A stretch of DNA of 38,426 nt from a virus (IMGVR_UViG_3300043403_000088:1-38426); one strand, 5' to 3'. Positions 3,549-37,092 are shown, counted from the stretch's first letter. Notes: generated by a model from the sequence alone, not told the origin. Translations and numbers: made by a program.

Positions 3549-3577
3549 TATCTAAGCCTTCCGCCAGCACTTTGCAA
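3549..3577 (-). promoter_or_regulatory. Promoter for the 2765-3481 gene
   Basis: On the minus strand the -35 is TTGCAA (3572-3577), the spacer is 17 bp and the -10 is TAGATA (3549-3554). TGCTGGC sits at spacer positions 3-9, and a second copy lies upstream (plus-strand GCCAGCA at 3585), 22 bp from the first at 3563. This repeats the paired arrangement seen at 2269-2310. Confidence 0.75.
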
Positions 3578-3628
3578 GCCCCCGGCCAGCATTTTCCTTG
3601 GATGAATTGCTCGGAGCAGGGATGTTCC

Positions 3629-3863
3629 GTTTCTACAGCTGTTTGAGCAGGGGATCCGTCTGAGCAGCCCCGACCCCGGCCTCGACAGCCCAGAATTGCG
3701 AAAGAGTGCGAAAGAGGCTGTTTGAGCGCACGACTACCCTCTCCGGTATCAGGGTATGTAAAAGTCCGCCAAGGGGCCGAGACGGTCCGCTGAAAATTAA
3801 AGATTTTCGGCCGTTGACGCAATAAAATTGCGGACCCGTTCTTTAGCTGTTGAAGCGGAATTC
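3629..3863 (+). repeat. Large spacer repeat, copy D
   Basis: Shared blocks are TTTCTACAGCTGTTTGAGCA (from 3630), two GCGAAAGAG words, GGCTGTTTGAGC (3716-3727), CCGGTATCAGGGTATGT, GGTCCGCTGAAAA, a perfect hairpin GAAAAT-TAAAG-ATTTTC (3792-3808) and GGCCGTTGACGC (3809-3820). CAATAAAATTG and TTCTTTAGCTGTTGAAGCGG (from 3839), as in copy B, complete it. The copy ends just before the -35 at 3878, so it is the upstream region of a promoter. Confidence 0.65.
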
Positions 3864-3877
3864 CTGCTCGGAGCCCC

Positions 3878-3906
3878 TTGCAATCCGCCAGCAGAATGCT
3901 TAGATA
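3878..3906 (+). promoter_or_regulatory. Rightward promoter for the 3956-6576 genes
   Basis: The -35 is TTGCAA (3878-3883), the spacer is 17 bp and the -10 is TAGATA (3901-3906). The spacer sequence, including GCCAGCA, is identical to that of the leftward promoter at 1042-1070. It is the only good promoter seen ahead of the plus-strand small-gene series. Confidence 0.75.
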
Positions 3907-3955
3907 GCTTGTATCCCGGGTGCATGGGCAGCCGGAGGCATAGGAGACAGAGACG

Positions 3956-4189
3956 ATGATGACGGCATATTATGGCGGCGGCGCGGCTAGCATGAGCAGC
4001 AAAAAGGGCGCTGAGGAAGTGGCGGCGGCGGGTGAGGCGCTGGCGGCGGCGCGCGATCAGTTGGTGGAAGCCTTTGTAGTCCTGCGTGGCAAGAAGAAGG
4101 ATGAAGCAAGCGAGCTGCTGGACGCGGTGATGGTGTTGCTTGACCGGTGTGTGGCGCTGGAAAGCCGGATTGACCCTAGCGCGGGTTGA
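3956..4189 (+). CDS. Hypothetical small helical protein, 77 aa
   Basis: This is the first gene of the rightward series. It has the leader ATAGGAGACAGAGACG before ATG 3956; a second ATG follows directly at 3959. After a glycine-rich N-terminus (YYGGGAA), residues about 18-70 form an Ala-, Glu- and Leu-rich amphipathic helix region (GEALAAARDQLVEAF, then ASELLDAVMVLLDRCVALES), likely a helical hairpin or coiled coil. No family is recognised. A structured intergenic module begins at its stop. Confidence 0.7.
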   Translation: MMTAYYGGGAASMSSKKGAEEVAAAGEALAAARDQLVEAFVVLRGKKKDEASELLDAVMVLLDRCVALESRIDPSAG

Positions 4190-4328
4190 GCAAGCGCGGA
4201 TCCGGTGTAGGCCGGATCCCCTTCCTGGGCGCTCCTCCTGGAGCCTCCTGGAGGTGGATCCCCACCAGCGCGGTGCCCCGCTTAGGGCCCAAACAATGCC
4301 CCGCTTAGGGGCTTGACAGGAGACAGAG
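4187..4328 (+). repeat. Structured intergenic module I
   Basis: In order: GAGCAAGCGCGG (4188-4199), stem GGATCCGG-TGTAGG-CCGGATCC (4198-4219), stem GCTCC-TCCT-GGAGC inside CCTGGGC..CTCCTGG, a GGTGGATCCCCACC stem, a broken and then a perfect CCCCGCTTAGGGG stem (4299-4311), and the GACAGGAGACAGAG leader of the next gene. The whole spacer is built of inverted repeats. Confidence 0.75.
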
Positions 4329-4685
4329 ATGATGAAGATGGCGATGCAGCATGAGGCTGAGGTGCAGACGCTGAAGGCGGCGATGCTGGGCTGCTGGATT
4401 CCGACGGTGATCCCGGTGGGGCCGGCGGCGGTGGTGATGGCAGCTTGGAACGGACATGGGCCGAGCTGCTGGTCGGTGGTGACGGTGGCAGGCGGTGCGG
4501 CGACGGTGTGGTCGGAGTGCGAAGGCGAATGGACGCAGATGACGCTGGAGCGCGCGGTGGCGCTGCTGGGTGCAGAGCGCGGCGGGGACGAGCAAGACAT
4601 GGGGCTGGACACGGTGGTGCAGCGGACGGCGGTGCCGGAGGCAGTGCGCGCGGCGGTGAAGGAGGCGCGGATGCAGTGGCGCTGA
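4329..4685 (+). CDS. Hypothetical protein, 118 aa
   Basis: The leader GACAGGAGACAGAG runs directly into ATG 4329. The N-terminal half is hydrophobic in places (AAMLGCWIPTVIPVGPAAVVMAAW) without a clean membrane span. The middle is Gly-, Ala- and Val-rich with Trp and Cys (SCWSVVTVAGGAATVW). The last 50 residues are charged and helical. Enclosed between two copies of the same intergenic module, it looks like one cassette of a series. The family is not recognised. Confidence 0.7.
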   Translation: MMKMAMQHEAEVQTLKAAMLGCWIPTVIPVGPAAVVMAAWNGHGPSCWSVVTVAGGAATVWSECEGEWTQMTLERAVALLGAERGGDEQDMGLDTVVQRTAVPEAVRAAVKEARMQWR

Positions 4686-4827
4686 GCAAGCGCGGATCCG
4701 GTGTAAGCCGGATCCTCCTCCTGGGCGCTCCAGCCGGAGCCCCCTGGCGGTGGATCCCCACCAGCGCGGTGCCCCGCTTAGGGACCAAACAATGCCCCGC
4801 TTAGGGGCCTGACAGGAGACAGATACG
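4683..4827 (+). repeat. Structured intergenic module II
   Basis: This is nearly identical to module I: GAGCAAGCGCGG (4685-4695), stem GGATCCGG-TGTAAG-CCGGATCC, stem GCTCC-AGCC-GGAGC, GGTGGATCCCCACC, two CTTAGGG elements and the leader GACAGGAGACAGAT. Only the loop of the second stem and a few other bases differ from module I. Confidence 0.75.
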
Positions 4828-5076
4828 ATGACGACTCACAGCTTCCGCTTCCGCGTCCAGGTGAACTTCCACCCAATGGACGACGTGATCCCCAACCAGG
4901 AACGCATCGAGGGATCCATCCTCAGCACAGACGACCGCGTGGTCGGGCTGCGCCGTGCAGCGAACGGCGAGCAGGTGCTGGAGGTGCTGACAGACAATGC
5001 GGCGTCCATCCTGAGCGCGCTCGAGGACGACGGCTTCGAGTATCTGGAGTGCAAGGTGGTGCGCATCCGGCTTTGA
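4828..5076 (+). CDS. Hypothetical protein, 82 aa
   Basis: ATG 4828 follows the leader GACAGGAGACAGATACG. The sequence alternates hydrophobic and charged residues (HSFRFRVQVNFHPMDDVIPN, EYLECKVVRIRL), suggesting a small beta-rich fold. A helix is likely near residues 48-70 (GEQVLEVLTDNAASILSALE). There is no known motif and no membrane segment. It sits between intergenic modules II and III as another cassette. Confidence 0.75.
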   Translation: MTTHSFRFRVQVNFHPMDDVIPNQERIEGSILSTDDRVVGLRRAANGEQVLEVLTDNAASILSALEDDGFEYLECKVVRIRL

Positions 5077-5192
5077 GCAAGCGCGGCACCCGGCTCCGGC
5101 CGGGTCCACTCCGCCGCCGCCCCACGGGACGGCGCCGCGGTGGACCCCCACCGACCATGCCCCGCTTAGGGGCCAGACAGGAGACAGAGACG
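5074..5192 (+). repeat. Structured intergenic module III (variant)
   Basis: Here the first stem is ACCCGGC-TCC-GGCCGGGT instead of GGATCCGG..CCGGATCC: the bases changed on both sides and pairing was kept. The second stem is replaced by a longer one, GTCCAC..GTGGAC enclosing CGCCG..CGGCG. CCCCGCTTAGGGG and the GACAGGAGACAGAG leader close the module. The shared order with different bases supports selection on RNA or DNA structure. Confidence 0.7.
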
Positions 5193-5354
5193 ATGCGCAA
5201 CTATGACACCCTGCCCCCGGCAGACGACTTGAACGCCCTGGCGGACGCCGCCTACTATGTGGATCCGGACTTCGACGACGAGCCGCTGCTCTTCATGAGC
5301 CGGTCGGCGGGCTACTTCCCGGCTCCGGCCATCCTCCTGCAGAAGGAGTGGTGA
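5193..5354 (+). CDS. Hypothetical small acidic protein, 53 aa
   Basis: ATG 5193 follows GACAGGAGACAGAGACG. The 53-residue product is acidic in the middle (YVDPDFDDEPLL) and ends in a hydrophobic, Pro-rich segment (YFPAPAILLQKEW). No family is recognised. It is followed after one base by a second very small open frame, so it probably starts a three-gene run of microproteins. Confidence 0.65.
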   Translation: MRNYDTLPPADDLNALADAAYYVDPDFDDEPLLFMSRSAGYFPAPAILLQKEW

Positions 5355-5355
5355 C

Positions 5356-5487
5356 GTGCTGTTGACACTCGCACTGATCGCGTGGATGTGCGGCGAGGCT
5401 GAGGCTGCACAGTTCCTTTGGAAGCTGTGGCTCCTCGAGCTCTGCGCCACCCTTATTCTGGTCGGGCTACTGGCGGTGTCGGGATGA
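5356..5487 (+). CDS. Membrane microprotein, 43 aa
   Basis: This is a GTG-started frame beginning one base after the previous stop. An AGGAG sequence (5343-5347) at about 8 nt spacing supports the start. The product is almost entirely hydrophobic: a first segment (LLTLALIAWMC) and a second (LWLLELCATLILVGLLAVSG) separated by a short acidic turn (GEAEA). One or two membrane passes are likely. Its 3' end overlaps the next microgene (ATGA). The function is unknown; a role in the envelope or lysis is only a guess. Confidence 0.55.
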   Translation: MLLTLALIAWMCGEAEAAQFLWKLWLLELCATLILVGLLAVSG

Positions 5488-5552
5488 TCGAGCAGCTGAT
5501 CCTCGTCCCCGCCGCCTTGGGCCTCCTGCTCATCGCGATCGGCTTCCAGTGA
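5484..5552 (+). CDS. Membrane micropeptide, 22 aa
   Basis: ATG 5484 overlaps the preceding stop as ATGA, a translational-coupling arrangement. The peptide starts MIEQLILVPAALGLLLIAIG and is one short hydrophobic helix. Its length is below what gene finders call. The overlap and the clean hydrophobic character support it, and an intergenic module begins right after its stop. Confidence 0.45.
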   Translation: MIEQLILVPAALGLLLIAIGFQ

Positions 5553-5686
5553 CCCGGCTCCGGCCGGGTTCACCCCCTGGGCGCTCCAAGCGGAGCCTCC
5601 TGGCGGTGGACCCCACCGAACACGACCAACCGCCCCGCTTAGGGGTCAGCACCCGCCCCGCTTAGGGGCTTGACAGGAGACAGAGA
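5553..5686 (+). repeat. Structured intergenic module IV
   Basis: It lacks the GAGCAAGCGCGG start. The stems are ACCCGGC-TCC-GGCCGGGT, GCTCC-AAGC-GGAGC inside CCTGGGC..CTCCTGG, GGTGGACCCCACC and two CCCCGCTTAGGGG elements (one followed by TCAGCACC), then GACAGGAGACAGAG. Confidence 0.75.
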
Positions 5687-6124
5687 ATGGCACTTTACTG
5701 GGACGTAACTAAGGTCGCCGACCATGCGACGATCACCACACATCCAGAGGACCTGGCCCCCAATTCCGAGACCACGCGTTGGTCGCCGATCACGGAATCC
5801 ATCGTCTGGATGACAGTGGCGGTGGGCATCAACAAGATCACTTCCGAGAACGCAGAATTGTTCTTCACCCGGACGATCCAGGTGGAGCACATCACGGGCG
5901 CGAGCTTGCTCTCAAAGGATGGTCCGATGTTCCTCACGCTGGGCGACATCCGCGAACACATCGGGCTTACGACGAACGCGAGCACGAAGACGGCGGCGCA
6001 GTTCAACGCCTATCTCCTGCGTATCATCGCCTCGGAGGCCAAGGACAGGGCTGCGAGACGCGACCGCCTCGACCCGCGCTCGCTGCGCGAGGCAATGGTG
6101 GAGCGTATCAAGGCTGCACAGTGA
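5687..6124 (+). CDS. Hypothetical protein, 145 aa
   Basis: ATG 5687 directly follows the leader GACAGGAGACAGAG. The protein appears to have a beta-rich N-terminal half (TTRWSPITESIVWMTVAVGI, ELFFTRTIQVEHITG) and a helical C-terminal half (TKTAAQFNAYLLRIIASEAK) ending in a basic helix (RSLREAMVERIKAAQ). No catalytic motif is visible. It is soluble and not recognised. It is a cassette between modules IV and V. Confidence 0.8.
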   Translation: MALYWDVTKVADHATITTHPEDLAPNSETTRWSPITESIVWMTVAVGINKITSENAELFFTRTIQVEHITGASLLSKDGPMFLTLGDIREHIGLTTNASTKTAAQFNAYLLRIIASEAKDRAARRDRLDPRSLREAMVERIKAAQ

Positions 6125-6252
6125 CACTGCGACCCGGCTCCGGCCGGGTCCACCTCCTGGGCGCTCCGGCTGGAGCCTCCTGGTGGTGGACCCCACCACC
6201 CCGCTTAGGGGCCAACACGACCCCCGCTTAGGGGCCAAATAGGAGATAGAAG
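6122..6252 (+). repeat. Structured intergenic module V
   Basis: The stems are GACCCGGC-TCC-GGCCGGGTC, an outer GGTCCACC..GGTGGACC stem enclosing GCTCC-GGCT-GGAGC, and two CCCCGCTTAGGGG elements (near 6199 and 6226). The leader is AATAGGAGATAGAAG, slightly changed from the usual form. The outer stem makes the nested structure clearest in this copy. Confidence 0.75.
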
Positions 6253-6576
6253 ATGAGCTACCGACTGGACGAACCGAGCCGCAGGACCCTCTGCGTCCAC
6301 AACCTGGCGATCATCCGTGAAGTGACCGACCACGCCGCCTCGATCAGCGAGGATGAGCGCCCGCTCGCCATTACGGACATCCGCCGCTTGGATGACTACG
6401 AGGGCGACCAGATGTTCGCCGTGGATGCCATCTATTGGCTGAACACCATGGGGCAGAAGCGTTTCTACTTGGTGCGCGTCTACCCGAACGCGACCTCGAT
6501 CGGTGTGAAGGAGTGCCTCAGCGAGGGCGACCGCGACCGCCAGGTGGGCTTCCTGGTCGGGTCGACCCCCGCTTAG
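6253..6576 (+). CDS. Hypothetical protein, 107 aa
   Basis: ATG 6253 follows AATAGGAGATAGAAG. The protein is acidic, predicted alpha-beta, with segments such as RRLDDYEGDQMFAVDAIYWL and QKRFYLVRVYPNATSIGVKE. Its stop codon TAG and the codons just before it (ACC CCC GCT TAG) lie inside the first CCCCGCTTAGGGG repeat of the triple at 6566-6625, so the repeat supplies the C-terminus. Whether an older, longer form existed cannot be told. No family is recognised. Confidence 0.75.
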   Translation: MSYRLDEPSRRTLCVHNLAIIREVTDHAASISEDERPLAITDIRRLDDYEGDQMFAVDAIYWLNTMGQKRFYLVRVYPNATSIGVKECLSEGDRDRQVGFLVGSTPA

Positions 6577-6625
6577 GGGCCACCACGACCCCCGCTTAGG
6601 GGCCACCACGACCCCCGCTTAGGGG
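6566..6625. terminator. Triple CCCCGCTTAGGGG hairpin between convergent genes
   Basis: Three copies of CCCC-GCTTA-GGGG (6567-6579, 6590-6602 and 6613-6625) are separated by CCACCACGA. They separate the rightward 6253-6576 gene from the leftward 6619-6897 gene. The first copy provides the TAG stop of the former and the third provides the TAA stop of the latter (read as CCCCTAAGC on the minus strand). A bidirectional transcription terminator or RNA end-protecting element is the simplest reading. Confidence 0.6.
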
Positions 6626-6897
6626 TTGGTGGCGCCGTCAATCGCCATGTCAACCACCTTGTGGAGATGGGCGCGGACCGCGGTGAGATCGCGGCCCGCG
6701 CCTTCTACTGACACGGCGCGGAAGATGAGCGCCGCGGCGACAGCCATCACCGAACAGAACTCGCACTGACCGTTGATGCGGGCACTGGCGCCAACAGAGA
6801 ACACCGTGGCGTTGATCAGCATCTTGGTGAACTCCGGCTCATGGCGGTTGTCCGGTCCACCACCTTCGCCGTCCCCGCTATGATGATCGAAAGCCAT
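6619..6897 (-). CDS. Hypothetical protein, 92 aa
   Basis: This is the last gene of the leftward operon. The start at 6897 has GAGGAGACTGCC before it and lies 10 bp past the previous gene's stop. The N-terminus is Gly-, His- and Asp-rich and probably disordered. The rest is helical with a Cys pair (GQCEFCSVM) and a hydrophobic helix (AVAAALIFRAVSV). C-terminal residues and the stop derive from a CCCCGCTTAGGGG repeat. No family is recognised. Confidence 0.7.
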   Translation of the reverse strand: MAFDHHSGDGEGGGPDNRHEPEFTKMLINATVFSVGASARINGQCEFCSVMAVAAALIFRAVSVEGAGRDLTAVRAHLHKVVDMAIDGATNP

Positions 6898-6907
6898 GGC
6901 AGTCTCC

Positions 6908-7987
6908 TCAGATGTGGCAGTCCACGATAGAGATCATTGCATCGTTGGGCAATGCGTCGATGCGGCGGCTGAACTCGCGGGCCCAGTCAGCTTTGCTCAC
7001 CTCGTTGATCGAGATGCCCCACCAGCCCATCTCGCCACGCTCGACCCAATTCCGCTCCATGCAGAAGGCGAAGGTGGTGATCGCGGATGCACGTGCCGTC
7101 GCAACATACTCTTCACGGGACACGAGGTAGTCGTCCAGGCGTTCCATGAAGGAGTCCTTGGCCTTGCTCATGCGCTCGATCGCCGGCTGCTCGTGGTAGG
7201 CCTTGCGGACGTCGTCGAGCGTGAGACCGCGCGCCAGGTAGGCTTCACGCATGGCGTCCCAACTGACCCACGCATCTTCGCCGTCCCGGGCTTCGGCCAT
7301 CTTGTCCCAACGATCACCGGCCACCTTACCGCCTTCGTCACGCATCCCGTCGAAGTCGATATCTTCCTTGTAAGCCCAGTCGGCGCGCTTCCCGTTCTTC
7401 AGCAGAAGGAAGTCCTTCCACCGGCCACCGATGACATACCAGTCCCACTTCTTGTTCGGGTTGGTGCGGCGGATAACGTCGATCACCACACCTTCTGCAT
7501 CCAGCAGGCCGTAGCCATACTTGTGAGCGCCGGCAATATGCGGCTGCTCGCCATGCGGAACGAACTCCACACTGTCCCAGTATTTGCAGAACTCCTTGAA
7601 CGTCTTCGACTGCTTGACCGGCACCTTGTCCTCGCGCCACCCATCCGGCGTGTAGTGGATCCTGGTGCTGTAGCCCTTACCGTCGCCCCAGTCCCTGGAC
7701 GTGAAGCTGTAGCCCTTAGCGAAGCCAGTCCCACCCATGGACCCAATCGCCGCACGTTCCTCTGACGTCGGTTCGCGGTAGAAGCAGTTGTCGTAGGCAT
7801 CGAGGGCCTCACCGGTCGCGTCGTTCACCATGACCGTGGACGTGTTTGTCTCGTAGCCCGACTTGAGTTCGTCCAGCTTCGAGATATTCTGGATGAAGTC
7901 GTCATCCTTCCCAGTGCACTCGAACTCATGGAACGGGGCCAGGTTGTGATCGACGTCGCCGACCACCATGACAGTGAAGTGACTCAT
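6908..7987 (-). CDS. MSHFTV-type phage protein of unknown function, 359 aa
   Basis: The N-terminus MSHFTVMVVGDVDHNLAPFH followed by EFECTGKDDDF, and the internal GGRWKDFLLLKNG and KKWDWYVIG segments, match a protein type I recall from many phages and actinobacterial genomes. No function has been assigned to it that I know of. It is soluble, rich in Trp and acidic residues, and full length by appearance. The start at 7987 follows AGGAGAAAGAA, which overlaps the stop (TAG) of the gene upstream. It is the largest gene of the leftward 8722-6619 operon. Confidence 0.85.
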   Translation of the reverse strand: MSHFTVMVVGDVDHNLAPFHEFECTGKDDDFIQNISKLDELKSGYETNTSTVMVNDATGEALDAYDNCFYREPTSEERAAIGSMGGTGFAKGYSFTSRDWGDGKGYSTRIHYTPDGWREDKVPVKQSKTFKEFCKYWDSVEFVPHGEQPHIAGAHKYGYGLLDAEGVVIDVIRRTNPNKKWDWYVIGGRWKDFLLLKNGKRADWAYKEDIDFDGMRDEGGKVAGDRWDKMAEARDGEDAWVSWDAMREAYLARGLTLDDVRKAYHEQPAIERMSKAKDSFMERLDDYLVSREEYVATARASAITTFAFCMERNWVERGEMGWWGISINEVSKADWAREFSRRIDALPNDAMISIVDCHI

Positions 7988-34379: not shown

Positions 34380-35606
34380 GTGTCGCAGTTACTTTTCCTC
34401 GACGGGACACAGATGGCAGAATCGTTGGTTGCAACCGACGAAGATGGCCGCGTCACCGTCCCTGCCGCTGCACAGACTCCCGTCGATGATGGCGAGCTGG
34501 CATCGAAACTCTACGTGGACAAGTCCGTATCGACAGGTGGTGGGCAGAAGCTGTCATTGTCGGGTGGCACGCTCACCGGGTTCTTGAACCTCCACGCCGA
34601 CCCTACTGCCCCGTCCCATGCTGCCACGAAGGGTTACGTTGACGACGTTGATGCGTACATCCGTGACGACTTCAGCGCCGCAGACGCAGCCCTGCAAGCC
34701 GCCATCAACGCAAGGCTACCGCTTGCTGGTGGCACGCTCACGGGGTTCCTGCTCCTCCATGCCGCCCCGACGGCGCTACTCCATGCCGCCACCAAGGGCT
34801 ATGTGGACAGCATCGACGCCGCTATCCGAACCGCGTTCGCTGCCGCAGATGCTGCGTTGCAGACGAGCATCAACGCCAAGCTGCCTTTGGCCGGTGGCAC
34901 GCTCACAGGGTTCCTAACGCTGCACGCAAAGCCGACTGCGGCGCTTCATGCTGCGAGCAAAGGGTATGTCGATGATGCACTTGCTGCACTCCCACCCGGA
35001 AGCGGTGTGATCATCAGTGCTGCCGCCCCTGCCAACCCGGTGCCGGGCCAGCTTTGGTATCGCACGGTCGCTCCGGTCGGACTGTTCGTGTGGTTCAATG
35101 ATGGCGACAGTAGCCAGTGGGTGCAGACAGCAGGCGGCAGTGTCGGCCTGTCCGGTGAGCAGGCTGTCAACACGGCTGGGTTGACACAAGCTGTCTTCGA
35201 TCAGGTGCCGGAAGAAGCGACTAGCTTGACCTTCTCGTTCTCGAACGTGACATTCAGCGGTGGCAACGCGCTGTTCGACTTCTTTGGTGCAACAGGGCAG
35301 GCGCATGGAACAGTCCGGCAGATCAACGCCGCAGCATATGGAGCGCCGACGGCGTTGAACGCCGCAGAGATCGAACTCGACAACATTGGCGGGACTGGTG
35401 GTATCATGGGCACCTATTTCCTTGAGCGCATTCAGGTATCCGGCAACCGGGTATGGAGCATGACGGGTTCGCATCGTCGAGGCAACTCGCTCATCACACA
35501 CGCGGGTCGCCTGATCCTGAACCAGACTGGATGGGCACCGCCGCGTTTCCGGGTGTCCGCAGGCACGTTCGCGTCGAACCCTATCGTCTGCCGGTGGCGC
35601 ACCTGA
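34380..35606 (+). CDS. Tail fibre with 55-residue repeats, 408 aa
   Basis: GTG 34380 has ACGAGGTCACC upstream. Residues about 60-205 hold three copies of a 55-residue unit (LPLAGGTLTGFLxLHAxPTA, then LHAATKGYVD) at 165-bp intervals. This motif is widespread in phage fibres and probably forms trimeric shafts. A beta-rich head domain follows (LWYRTVAPVGLFVWFNDGDS, SQWV), then a variable end that may bind receptor. A weak CCCAC..GTGGG stem with TTT lies upstream at 34321-34341. Confidence 0.8.
   Translation: MSQLLFLDGTQMAESLVATDEDGRVTVPAAAQTPVDDGELASKLYVDKSVSTGGGQKLSLSGGTLTGFLNLHADPTAPSHAATKGYVDDVDAYIRDDFSAADAALQAAINARLPLAGGTLTGFLLLHAAPTALLHAATKGYVDSIDAAIRTAFAAADAALQTSINAKLPLAGGTLTGFLTLHAKPTAALHAASKGYVDDALAALPPGSGVIISAAAPANPVPGQLWYRTVAPVGLFVWFNDGDSSQWVQTAGGSVGLSGEQAVNTAGLTQAVFDQVPEEATSLTFSFSNVTFSGGNALFDFFGATGQAHGTVRQINAAAYGAPTALNAAEIELDNIGGTGGIMGTYFLERIQVSGNRVWSMTGSHRRGNSLITHAGRLILNQTGWAPPRFRVSAGTFASNPIVCRWRT
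34563..34980 (+). repeat. 165-bp coding repeats in the fibre gene
   Basis: GGTGGCACGCTCAC starts at 34563, 34728 and 34893, exactly 165 bp apart. The units share strings such as GGCACGCTCAC and CATGCTGC while differing at synonymous sites, so they have diverged since duplication. Confidence 0.8.
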
Positions 35607-35607
35607 C

Positions 35608-36105
35608 GTGGCTCTTAACTTCCCTTCCAGCCCCATCGTCGGGCAGGTCTTCTCTGCCGAAGGCGCGGACTTCGTGTGGTCTGGTGCCGTCTGGGTGCCG
35701 CTCGACGGGTCAAACTTCCCTTACGCCACACAGGCCGAGGCATTGGCAGGGACACGCACGGATCGGGCCATGTCGCCGCTGACGACGCAGCAGGCCATCG
35801 CTGCACGCAACTTCCAGCCAAGCGAAGGCTACGGCGTTCCGGTGGATGTCGCTGCACAACGCACCGTGGCAACGAACTTTCGGAACAACACCGGGCGTAA
35901 CATGTTCTGGGCGGTGGATATCAACAACGACGTAAGCGGCATCATGCGTATCGGCCCGACTGGAACTCTCGCGGATTTCGACATTGCGAGGCTACTCGGT
36001 GCATCTGGCCGGATTAACAGGGGTGGCTTGCTCGTCGTCCCTGATACGTGGTTCTACCGACTGGACGGCGCGGGCATAACACTCGCAGCTTGGTGGGAGT
36101 GGTAG
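35608..36105 (+). CDS. Small fibre-like protein, 165 aa, paralogue 1
   Basis: GTG 35608 begins one base after the fibre stop. The N-terminus MALNFPSSPIVGQVFSAEGA followed by DFVWSGAVWVPL is a domain often seen at the end of phage fibres and repeated in the next two genes. The centre has TRTDRAMSPLTTQQAIAARN, and the end (VVPDTWFYRLDGAGITLAAW) is Trp-rich. It is probably an accessory fibre subunit; the function is otherwise unknown. Confidence 0.7.
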   Translation: MALNFPSSPIVGQVFSAEGADFVWSGAVWVPLDGSNFPYATQAEALAGTRTDRAMSPLTTQQAIAARNFQPSEGYGVPVDVAAQRTVATNFRNNTGRNMFWAVDINNDVSGIMRIGPTGTLADFDIARLLGASGRINRGGLLVVPDTWFYRLDGAGITLAAWWEW

Positions 36106-36106
36106 C

Positions 36107-36601
36107 ATGGCGCTGAACTTCCCGAACAATCCAGTCGTCAATCAGGTCTTCCAGAGCGAGGGCATGACCTTTGTCTGGACCGGCGCGGTCTGGCGCGTCA
36201 TCGACACCTTCCCGTGGGCGTCGGCTGGCGGGGCAAGTGGAGTTATGACGCCAGCGGCGACCAGAGCGGCCTTGGACGCCGTGCCAGCTAGTCGAGTTTG
36301 GGGGCTAGGCGTGCCGCAAACTTTTGCTCGCGCGGCAGGCGTCAACTACCAGTGGACCGGAAGCCGTCCGTTGCTCATTGCCATCACCTTCTGGGATCGT
36401 GACGCCGTGTCGCGTGCCGAACTCCGCACAGGCCCGACGAACGTGGTCCCACCGGACATCAACCTTGGCAGGATCGAAGCTCTGCGCGGGAACGAGAACT
36501 CGATCATCGGCGTCATTCCGGCAGGCTGGTGGTATCGTCTGCATGTCATCGCGAACCGCGTCAGCGCAACGCAATGGTGGGAGTGGAGGAACGCACCATG
36601 A
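36107..36601 (+). CDS. Small fibre-like protein, 164 aa, paralogue 2
   Basis: ATG 36107 follows the preceding stop by one base. The N-terminal MALNFPNNPVVNQVFQSEGM then TFVWTGAVW, and the C-terminal PAGWWYRLHVIAN with WWEW, match paralogue 1. The middle differs (ASAGGASGVMTPAATRAALD). Its stop overlaps the next ATG (ATGA). Confidence 0.7.
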   Translation: MALNFPNNPVVNQVFQSEGMTFVWTGAVWRVIDTFPWASAGGASGVMTPAATRAALDAVPASRVWGLGVPQTFARAAGVNYQWTGSRPLLIAITFWDRDAVSRAELRTGPTNVVPPDINLGRIEALRGNENSIIGVIPAGWWYRLHVIANRVSATQWWEWRNAP

Positions 36602-37092
36602 GCCTCAACTTCCCTGCCAGCCCTGCACCCGGACAGGTATTCACCGCCGAGGGTCGCAGCTTTGCGTGGAACGGCGCTGTCTGGCTGATGCAACCGACAG
36701 TGATCCCGTGGGCCACCAATGCAGAGGCGCTTGAGGGAACGCGGGCGGACCGCGCCATGTCTCCGGCCCTGACGAGGTTGAGGACGGATGCCATACAGAC
36801 GGGCGGTACGGAGAACCCGCTCTCGGGAACGCCTGTAGATGTGCTCGCGCAGCGGGCGGTGAGCATCGCTTACCAGAACCCTTTCGACCGTCCGATGGTT
36901 CTGAGCGTGTGGGCTGAGGCGCAGATTGTCATCAACATCGGTGCAACGGCAGGCACTCTTGCCCGCTTTCTCCAGTCGCAGAGGATGCAGGCTGCGGCGG
37001 CGTCGGCGACCTATGTCTTTGGCCTGATCCCACCGCGATGGTGGTATAGTGTCGGCGGCGGAAGCCTCTTTGGTTGGGTGGAGTATCGTTGA
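36598..37092 (+). CDS. Small fibre-like protein, 164 aa, paralogue 3
   Basis: ATG 36598 has GGAGGAACGCACC upstream and overlaps the previous stop. MSLNFPASPAPGQVFTAEGR then SFAWNGAVW repeats the N-terminal domain. The middle has TRADRAMSPALTRLRTDA, as in paralogue 1, and the end PPRWWYSVGGGSLFGWVEYR has the Trp-Trp-Tyr motif. Three tandem copies of similar length suggest duplication with diversification of surface parts. Confidence 0.7.
   Translation: MSLNFPASPAPGQVFTAEGRSFAWNGAVWLMQPTVIPWATNAEALEGTRADRAMSPALTRLRTDAIQTGGTENPLSGTPVDVLAQRAVSIAYQNPFDRPMVLSVWAEAQIVINIGATAGTLARFLQSQRMQAAAASATYVFGLIPPRWWYSVGGGSLFGWVEYR

Follow-up and report, generated by a model that had tools for sequence, protein, structure and literature searches.

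Why should the gaps between small phage genes be copies of one another, and what might such copies do for the genes that they separate? The question is raised by a 38,426-base IMG/VR virus record (the window) from an uncultured tailed phage with structural genes of HK97-type siphovirus, among which the large terminase, a protease-fused major head protein, the portal, the tape measure and the central tail fibre J were found. None of the other IMG/VR contigs found has a terminase more than 55% identical to this one, and no near DNA relative is present in the phage collection. Further long intergenic repeats were observed in the left 4 kb of the phage. The genes at issue form an operon on the + strand (3956-6625), with leftward genes on either side:

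3956..4189, + strand: gene A, 77 aa, unknown function
4329..4685, + strand: gene B, 118 aa, unknown function
4828..5076, + strand: gene C, 82 aa, unknown function
5193..5354, + strand: gene D1, 53 aa
5356-5487 and 5484-5552, + strand: D2 (GTG start) and D3, small overlapping ORFs that follow D1 without a module between
5687..6124, + strand: gene E, 145 aa
6253..6576, + strand: gene F, 107 aa, ending at a stop codon within the first M6 hairpin

A repeated module between unrelated genes

Five intergenic spacers of the operon are copies of one GC-rich module of 115-145 nt, with pairwise identities of 73-92% (M1-M2 92%, M4-M5 81%, other pairs 73-77%). On one strand, each lies exactly between a stop codon and the leader of an unrelated gene, and the upstream coding region stops before or at the module start. 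The genes between the modules are mutually unrelated and show coding composition. The repeated module that the sequence-only reading had described between small genes is borne out at the positions where it had been placed, and whole modules are more folded than dinucleotide shuffles (z -2.2 to -3.1, the module being GC-rich). Other particulars of that reading stood in part: i) a module was said to follow most genes, and one occupies 5 of the 7 internal junctions, plus a reduced M6 at the operon end, with none between D1, D2 and D3; ii) the proposed order of elements is right overall, except that GCAAGCGCGG opens M1-M3 only, not M4 or M5; iii) the two versions of the first stem do pair through sequence changes, but align column for column; and iv) the second stem is present, but only as the inner part of a 22-nt-arm hairpin (the core hairpin), whose arms are partly used by the first and third stems as well. 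The features are as follows:

3878..3906, + strand: promoter-like TTGCAA-N17-TAGATA at the operon head, a regular-expression match of a type common to seven others before leader-bearing genes
3939..3952, + strand: leader of gene A (CATAGGAGACAGAG), without a module
4187..4328, + strand: module M1, with stop codon, GCAAGCGCGG, H1 4198-4219, core hairpin 4214-4261, H3 4253-4266, H4 4276-4288, H5 4299-4311, leader 4315-4328
4683..4827, + strand: module M2, with H1 4694-4715, core hairpin 4710-4757, H3 4749-4762, H4 4772-4784, H5 4795-4807, leader 4811-4824
5074..5192, + strand: module M3, with H1 5088-5105, core hairpin 5102-5147 (inner stem sequence differs), H3 5139-5152, single H5 5160-5172, leader 5176-5189
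5550..5686, + strand: module M4, with H1 5552-5569 overlapped by the upstream stop codon, core hairpin 5566-5613, H3 5605-5617, H4 5633-5645, H5 5656-5668, leader 5672-5685
6122..6252, + strand: module M5, with H1 6132-6149, core hairpin 6146-6193, H3 6182-6200, H4 6199-6211, H5 6222-6234, degenerate leader AATAGGAGATAGAA 6238-6251
6567..6625, + strand: reduced module M6, three CCCCGCTTAGGGG hairpins with a 23-bp period, closing the operon

The short-hairpin sequence is over-represented; CCCCGCTTAGGGG occurs 15 times with at most 2 mismatches against 1.06 expected, ten copies are exact with loop and stem invariant, and cousins (CCTAGCTTAGGGG) lie at 292, 447 and 634. In M6, the first copy takes in the stop codon of gene F (TAG, 6574-6576) and the last copy the stop codon (TAA, 6621-6619) of a convergent gene on the - strand (6619-6897). 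Because the M6 hairpins have no + strand gene downstream, the role of the short hairpins would not be limited to control of the following start.

The leader (GACAGGAGACAGAG) is over-represented as well, with 19 occurrences observed and 4.45 expected. It had been counted among the module's components, which does not hold: the leader also precedes promoter-headed genes on both strands, and is the phage's general early ribosome-binding leader. A leader scan found GACAGGAGACAGA ahead of ATG in many phages, which marks it as ribosome-binding context and not as a mark of the module. Eight leader-bearing genes, gene A included, carry promoter-like sites of TTGCRR-N17 type 43-85 nt upstream of the leader (1070-, 2297-, 3577-, 3878+, 8786-, 8806+, 10485- and 14399-), the spacers of which hold a TGCTGGC or GCCAGCA element. 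The modules themselves were rejected as promoters, no promoter-like TTGCRR being present within them; within the operon, they thus stand where promoters stand elsewhere. Nor are they intrinsic terminators, since no module contains TTTT and no terminator was called within them on the + strand. With neither a promoter nor a U-run terminator, the modules are intra-operon spacers.

Pairing and alternative folds

The core hairpin is a quasi-palindrome of 46-48 nt (MFE -31 to -36 kcal/mol), its 22-nt arms flanking a loop of 2-4 nt; in each copy, 18-19 of the 22 positions pair, leaving three or four mismatches. RNAalifold selected this hairpin unguided, and its folding z-scores ran from -3.8 to -6.1 against mononucleotide shuffles. 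Five core pairs have changed in both partners without loss of pairing, where 1.5 were expected and none of 500 shuffles reached five, as counted on an alignment made from sequence without adjustment to structure and among five paralogous copies from one genome, in which one event may be counted several times; slid versions gave 0-1 such changes. Four of the five come from M3, the inner stem of which has another sequence and is still paired (p = 0.02 for this stem alone). The core loops of M1, M2, M4 and M5 all differ (UCCU, AGCC, AAGC and GGCU), and the H1 versions are set apart by a single compensatory change (U-A to C-G), a U-G/C-G change and divergent outer pairs. On the + strand, G-U pairs outnumber A-C mismatches by 8 cells in 4 columns to 1, which, small as the numbers are, is expected if the + strand transcript is the folding molecule. 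Taken together, there is moderate evidence that the core hairpin is under selection on pairing. The earlier claim that selection acts on pairing and not on sequence accordingly survives for the core only, given how little the sequences of the CCCCGCTTAGGGG hairpins (H4/H5) and of the leader vary.

A repeat maintained at the DNA level might give the same picture. The modules would then be junctions of shared homology, multiplied through duplication or gene conversion, that serve or merely allow small-gene insertion and loss through recombination between copies, and their pairing would follow secondarily from palindrome templating or from the ancestral element. That the closest copies are neighbours (M1-M2, then M4-M5), that the flanking genes are unrelated and that other long intergenic repeats lie in the left 4 kb all fit such an origin. 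However, fixed pyrimidine mismatches between the arms are kept in four copies, where templating would mend them; the bias toward G-U over A-C points to a strand acting as RNA or single-stranded DNA; and no relative with swapped genes was found in the collections searched. We regard the DNA-level origin as rather unlikely.

In all five modules, the 5′ arm of the core overlaps the 3′ arm of H1, and the 3′ arm of the core overlaps the 5′ arm of H3. The shared arms imply that H1+H3 and the long hairpin exclude each other, four strands pairing as either 1:2+3:4 or 2:3. In computed ensembles, H1+H3 is favoured in M1, M2 and M3, and the long hairpin has a probability of 0.71 in M4 and 0.10 in M5 (mixed); as the thermodynamics favour H1+H3 in M1-M3 and give the long hairpin only 0.1 in M5, it may not be the predominant form. 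In M1, M2, M3 and M5, where the long hairpin had a probability of at most 0.1, blocking the first 18 nt from the upstream stop codon raised this probability above 0.96. With 15 nt blocked, the closest to a real ribosome footprint, it rose from 0.71 to 0.99 in M4, and the shift in the other modules was partial (0.07-0.63).

Attenuator leaders such as that of trp alternate between 1:2+3:4 and 2:3 pairing. The modules share with them the mutually exclusive stems and an upstream strand within ribosome reach, H1 starting 0-11 nt past the upstream stop codon; they differ in lying between genes, in having no leader peptide and no terminator U-run, and in being repeated five times. The lack of a U-run after 3:4 makes a classical attenuator untenable. 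A ribosome at the upstream stop codon might nevertheless cover strand 1 and convert 1:2+3:4 into 2:3, altering processing or access to the next leader. The shared topology, the proximity of H1 to the stop codon and the response of the predicted ensembles to blocking argue for such gating, as does an A/G change in strand 2 (M1/M2 versus M3-M5) that is matched in both strand 1 and strand 3. Yet the three-way match is one event, the 15-nt block acts only partially outside M4, and predicted leader accessibility did not change consistently on blocking; sequestration of the leader by CTCCTG was rejected on this inconsistency and on the absence of CTCCTG from M3 (it occurs in M1, M2, M4 and M5). We consider ribosome gating quite improbable, and still less probable the fuller proposal that each module is a bistable RNA flipped by the terminating ribosome, the five being translation-coupling copies that set the processing or translation of the next gene, with a core whose structure is better conserved than its sequence.

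Relatives and described elements

Near and distant DNA searches of phages gave no match, nor did a distant search of plasmids. Exact-pattern scans of IMG/VR (hairpin with leader, H1, H2) returned nothing, or isolated H2-like stretches without module context, and no Rfam family scored above its gathering score in the window. Patterns, proteins, BLAST and a covariance model, at the sensitivities used, found no relative in the IMG/VR, phage, plasmid and genome collections; the model also gave no match in 274 genomes from a single class, to which a Pseudomonadota MAG belongs, a result of low weight because this may not be the class of the host. Some candidates were set aside: tandem CCGCTTAGGGG units in genomes and IMG/VR are unrelated minisatellites; two CGCTTAGGGG-containing hairpins in one intergenic gap (L223) were taken as chance; and the best outside match of covariance model R1 (L162, E 0.0002) has just one ordinary hairpin ahead of the same leader. 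Among the module-flanked genes, a relative was found for gene E only: a Brevundimonas phage BabaJaga protein, distant at 34% identity over 77%, the gene of which sits in a tight array without modules. Another distant phage (L139) has the common leader and a homologue of the gene at 6908-7987 (38%), and its own repeated spacers are unrelated to the modules.

Literature searches for similar phage elements gave the SAS/ESAS repeats of cluster K mycobacteriophages as the relevant match, and theirs is the closest architecture. The statement in the sequence-only reading that no described phage element is like this one was too strong, SAS/ESAS being described with a similar layout (PMC3203893). They consist of a conserved, RBS-containing leader before the start codon and an upstream inverted repeat with 17-nt arms and a variable spacer, and they lie upstream of a subset of small, non-structural, unrelated genes (PMC3203893, PMC12699233). 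Roughly half the SAS sites have an ESAS beside them, and these are distributed over the genome's non-structural half (PMC3203893, PMC12699233). The likeness lies in a repeated element at unrelated genes that has a leader and, in looser correspondence, an inverted repeat upstream of it, here with 22-nt arms as opposed to 17-nt ones. The sequences and the phage group are different: the 13-bp SAS (GGGATAGGAGCCC) was not found beside the start codon, and it has only AGGAG in common with the GACAGGAGACAGAG leader. Where ESAS is one inverted repeat, the long hairpin here, different from it in length and sequence, is followed by short GC hairpins before the leader; pairing is kept through changes, and the modules are confined to one operon.

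The resemblance raises the prospect that the modules are likewise DNA or RNA sites bound by a phage regulator, with the invariant CCCCGCTTAGGGG hairpin as the recognised part. The ten exact copies, the CCTAGCTTAGGGG cousins and the shared layout of inverted repeat and RBS-like leader are consistent with such sites, but the core varies in sequence while keeping its pairing, the opposite of a site read by sequence, and departures in ESAS do not, according to its authors, generally support RNA pairing (PMC3203893). We find protein-binding sites hard to credit as the explanation.

Folded repeats also stand 3′ of each small gene in integron arrays, where the attC sites are more conserved in structure than in sequence and carry R′ (GTTRRRY) and R″ (RYYYAAC) cores. 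The modules are alike in being folded repeats after small genes, and unlike in lying on one strand in one operon. We rejected them as attC sites: GTTRRRY is absent from M1-M5 on either strand, no module has a RYYYAAC core, and the only attC-core match in the region (6001-6007) is inside gene E.

That the modules have no present function, being remnants of GC-rich spacer duplication that chance has preserved in a sparsely sampled phage, appears very improbable: they occur in a single record, and short tandem CCGCTTAGGGG units are minisatellites in unrelated genomes, but length, order and pairing are kept at 73-81% identity (M1-M2 apart) amid unrelated genes.

A candidate role between cistrons

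In the early region of T7, RNase III hairpins occupy the gaps between early genes on one polycistronic transcript (PMC4858673). The modules resemble these spacers in placing a hairpin of about two helical turns in intercistronic gaps, here a predicted hairpin (22-nt arms with 18-19 of 22 positions paired, in five gaps between presumably early cistrons). They differ in having extra short GC hairpins and no sequence relationship to the T7 sites. To our knowledge, the T7 sites, for their part, are not repeats of a single unit that carries a common RBS leader.

We tentatively favour, as possible though short of probable, the interpretation that the modules are RNA-level intercistronic elements that process, protect or insulate cistrons in the manner of the T7 spacers, an analogy of working and not a claim that they belong to that group. 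One early-type mRNA would run from the promoter-like site at 3878 through genes A-F, and would present between its cistrons either the 22-nt-arm hairpin or the local stems that compete with it, followed by one or two short GC hairpins and the leader. The long hairpin could be the site at which a double-strand-specific nuclease or an RNA-binding protein cuts or marks the junction; the short GC hairpins might shield the RNA ends, so that each cistron would be separately stable and separately translated, and the three short hairpins of M6 may protect the 3′ end. In whichever of these ways, the module probably shapes the cutting, protection or translation of the shared mRNA.

If the modules do process or insulate cistrons, the phage would place a recurring structured RNA cassette at the positions that promoters take before its other early genes, and would thereby run unrelated genes compactly from one promoter. 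Five diverged natural copies would offer a test set for how intercistronic structure affects transcript ends, mRNA stability and translation, and might furnish parts for operon design. A similar layout is already known from SAS/ESAS, and pairing kept through sequence changes is a difference here; the module gives sharper form to the question of the role that SAS/ESAS-like repeats have in phages.

One-strand motifs and composition of the left end

GCAAGCGCGG recurs in the window as follows:

573, 666, 1343, 1808, 2747, 3396, 4190, 4686 and 5077, + strand: GCAAGCGCGG (n = 9)

All nine copies lie on the + strand irrespective of gene orientation, with two falling within leftward genes, and the motif is confined to the left 5.1 kb of the window; this one-strand, left-end-only spread suggests that GCAAGCGCGG is a polar DNA motif. 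The strand count of CTTAGGGG is 14:0, all +. The left end, which is apparently non-coding, also carries alternating repeats and three relatives of the GC-rich short hairpin of the module (the hairpin spacer repeated between operon genes), two of these relatives sitting within GCCCCTAGCTTAGGGGC:

292-304, 447-459 and 634-646: CCTAGCTTAGGGG, cousins of the short hairpin
1-360: abundant alternating ATGCGTCGC and GCATACC repeats

Longer repeats and spacers of other phages

Three long repeat pairs (71-75% identity) connect intergenic regions of leftward genes, and direct repeats are internal to right-end genes:

1127-1354 / 2529-2758: long repeat pair
2270-2461 / 3550-3732: long repeat pair
365-491 (inverted) / 3697-3824: long inverted repeat pair
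34548-34972 and 35614-36775: direct repeats, units of 88-245 bp, 68-75% identical

Two other phages possess repeated intergenic elements. L139 (5090-7829), which shares the leader of the window phage, has its own repeated spacers ahead of genes, AT-richer than the module and unrelated to it. In L097 (60-2460), repeated intergenic hairpins ahead of gene starts are based on GTTTCACGTGAAAC, which resembles bacterial parS sites.

Promoter-like sites

Eight promoter-like sites are each followed, at a distance of 43-85 nt, by the leader, the phage's general early ribosome-binding leader:

1070, 2297, 3577, 8786, 10485 and 14399, - strand; 3878 and 8806, + strand: promoter-like sites

With TGCTGGC/GCCAGCA present within the spacer of all eight, the set looks like a regulon with a common operator.
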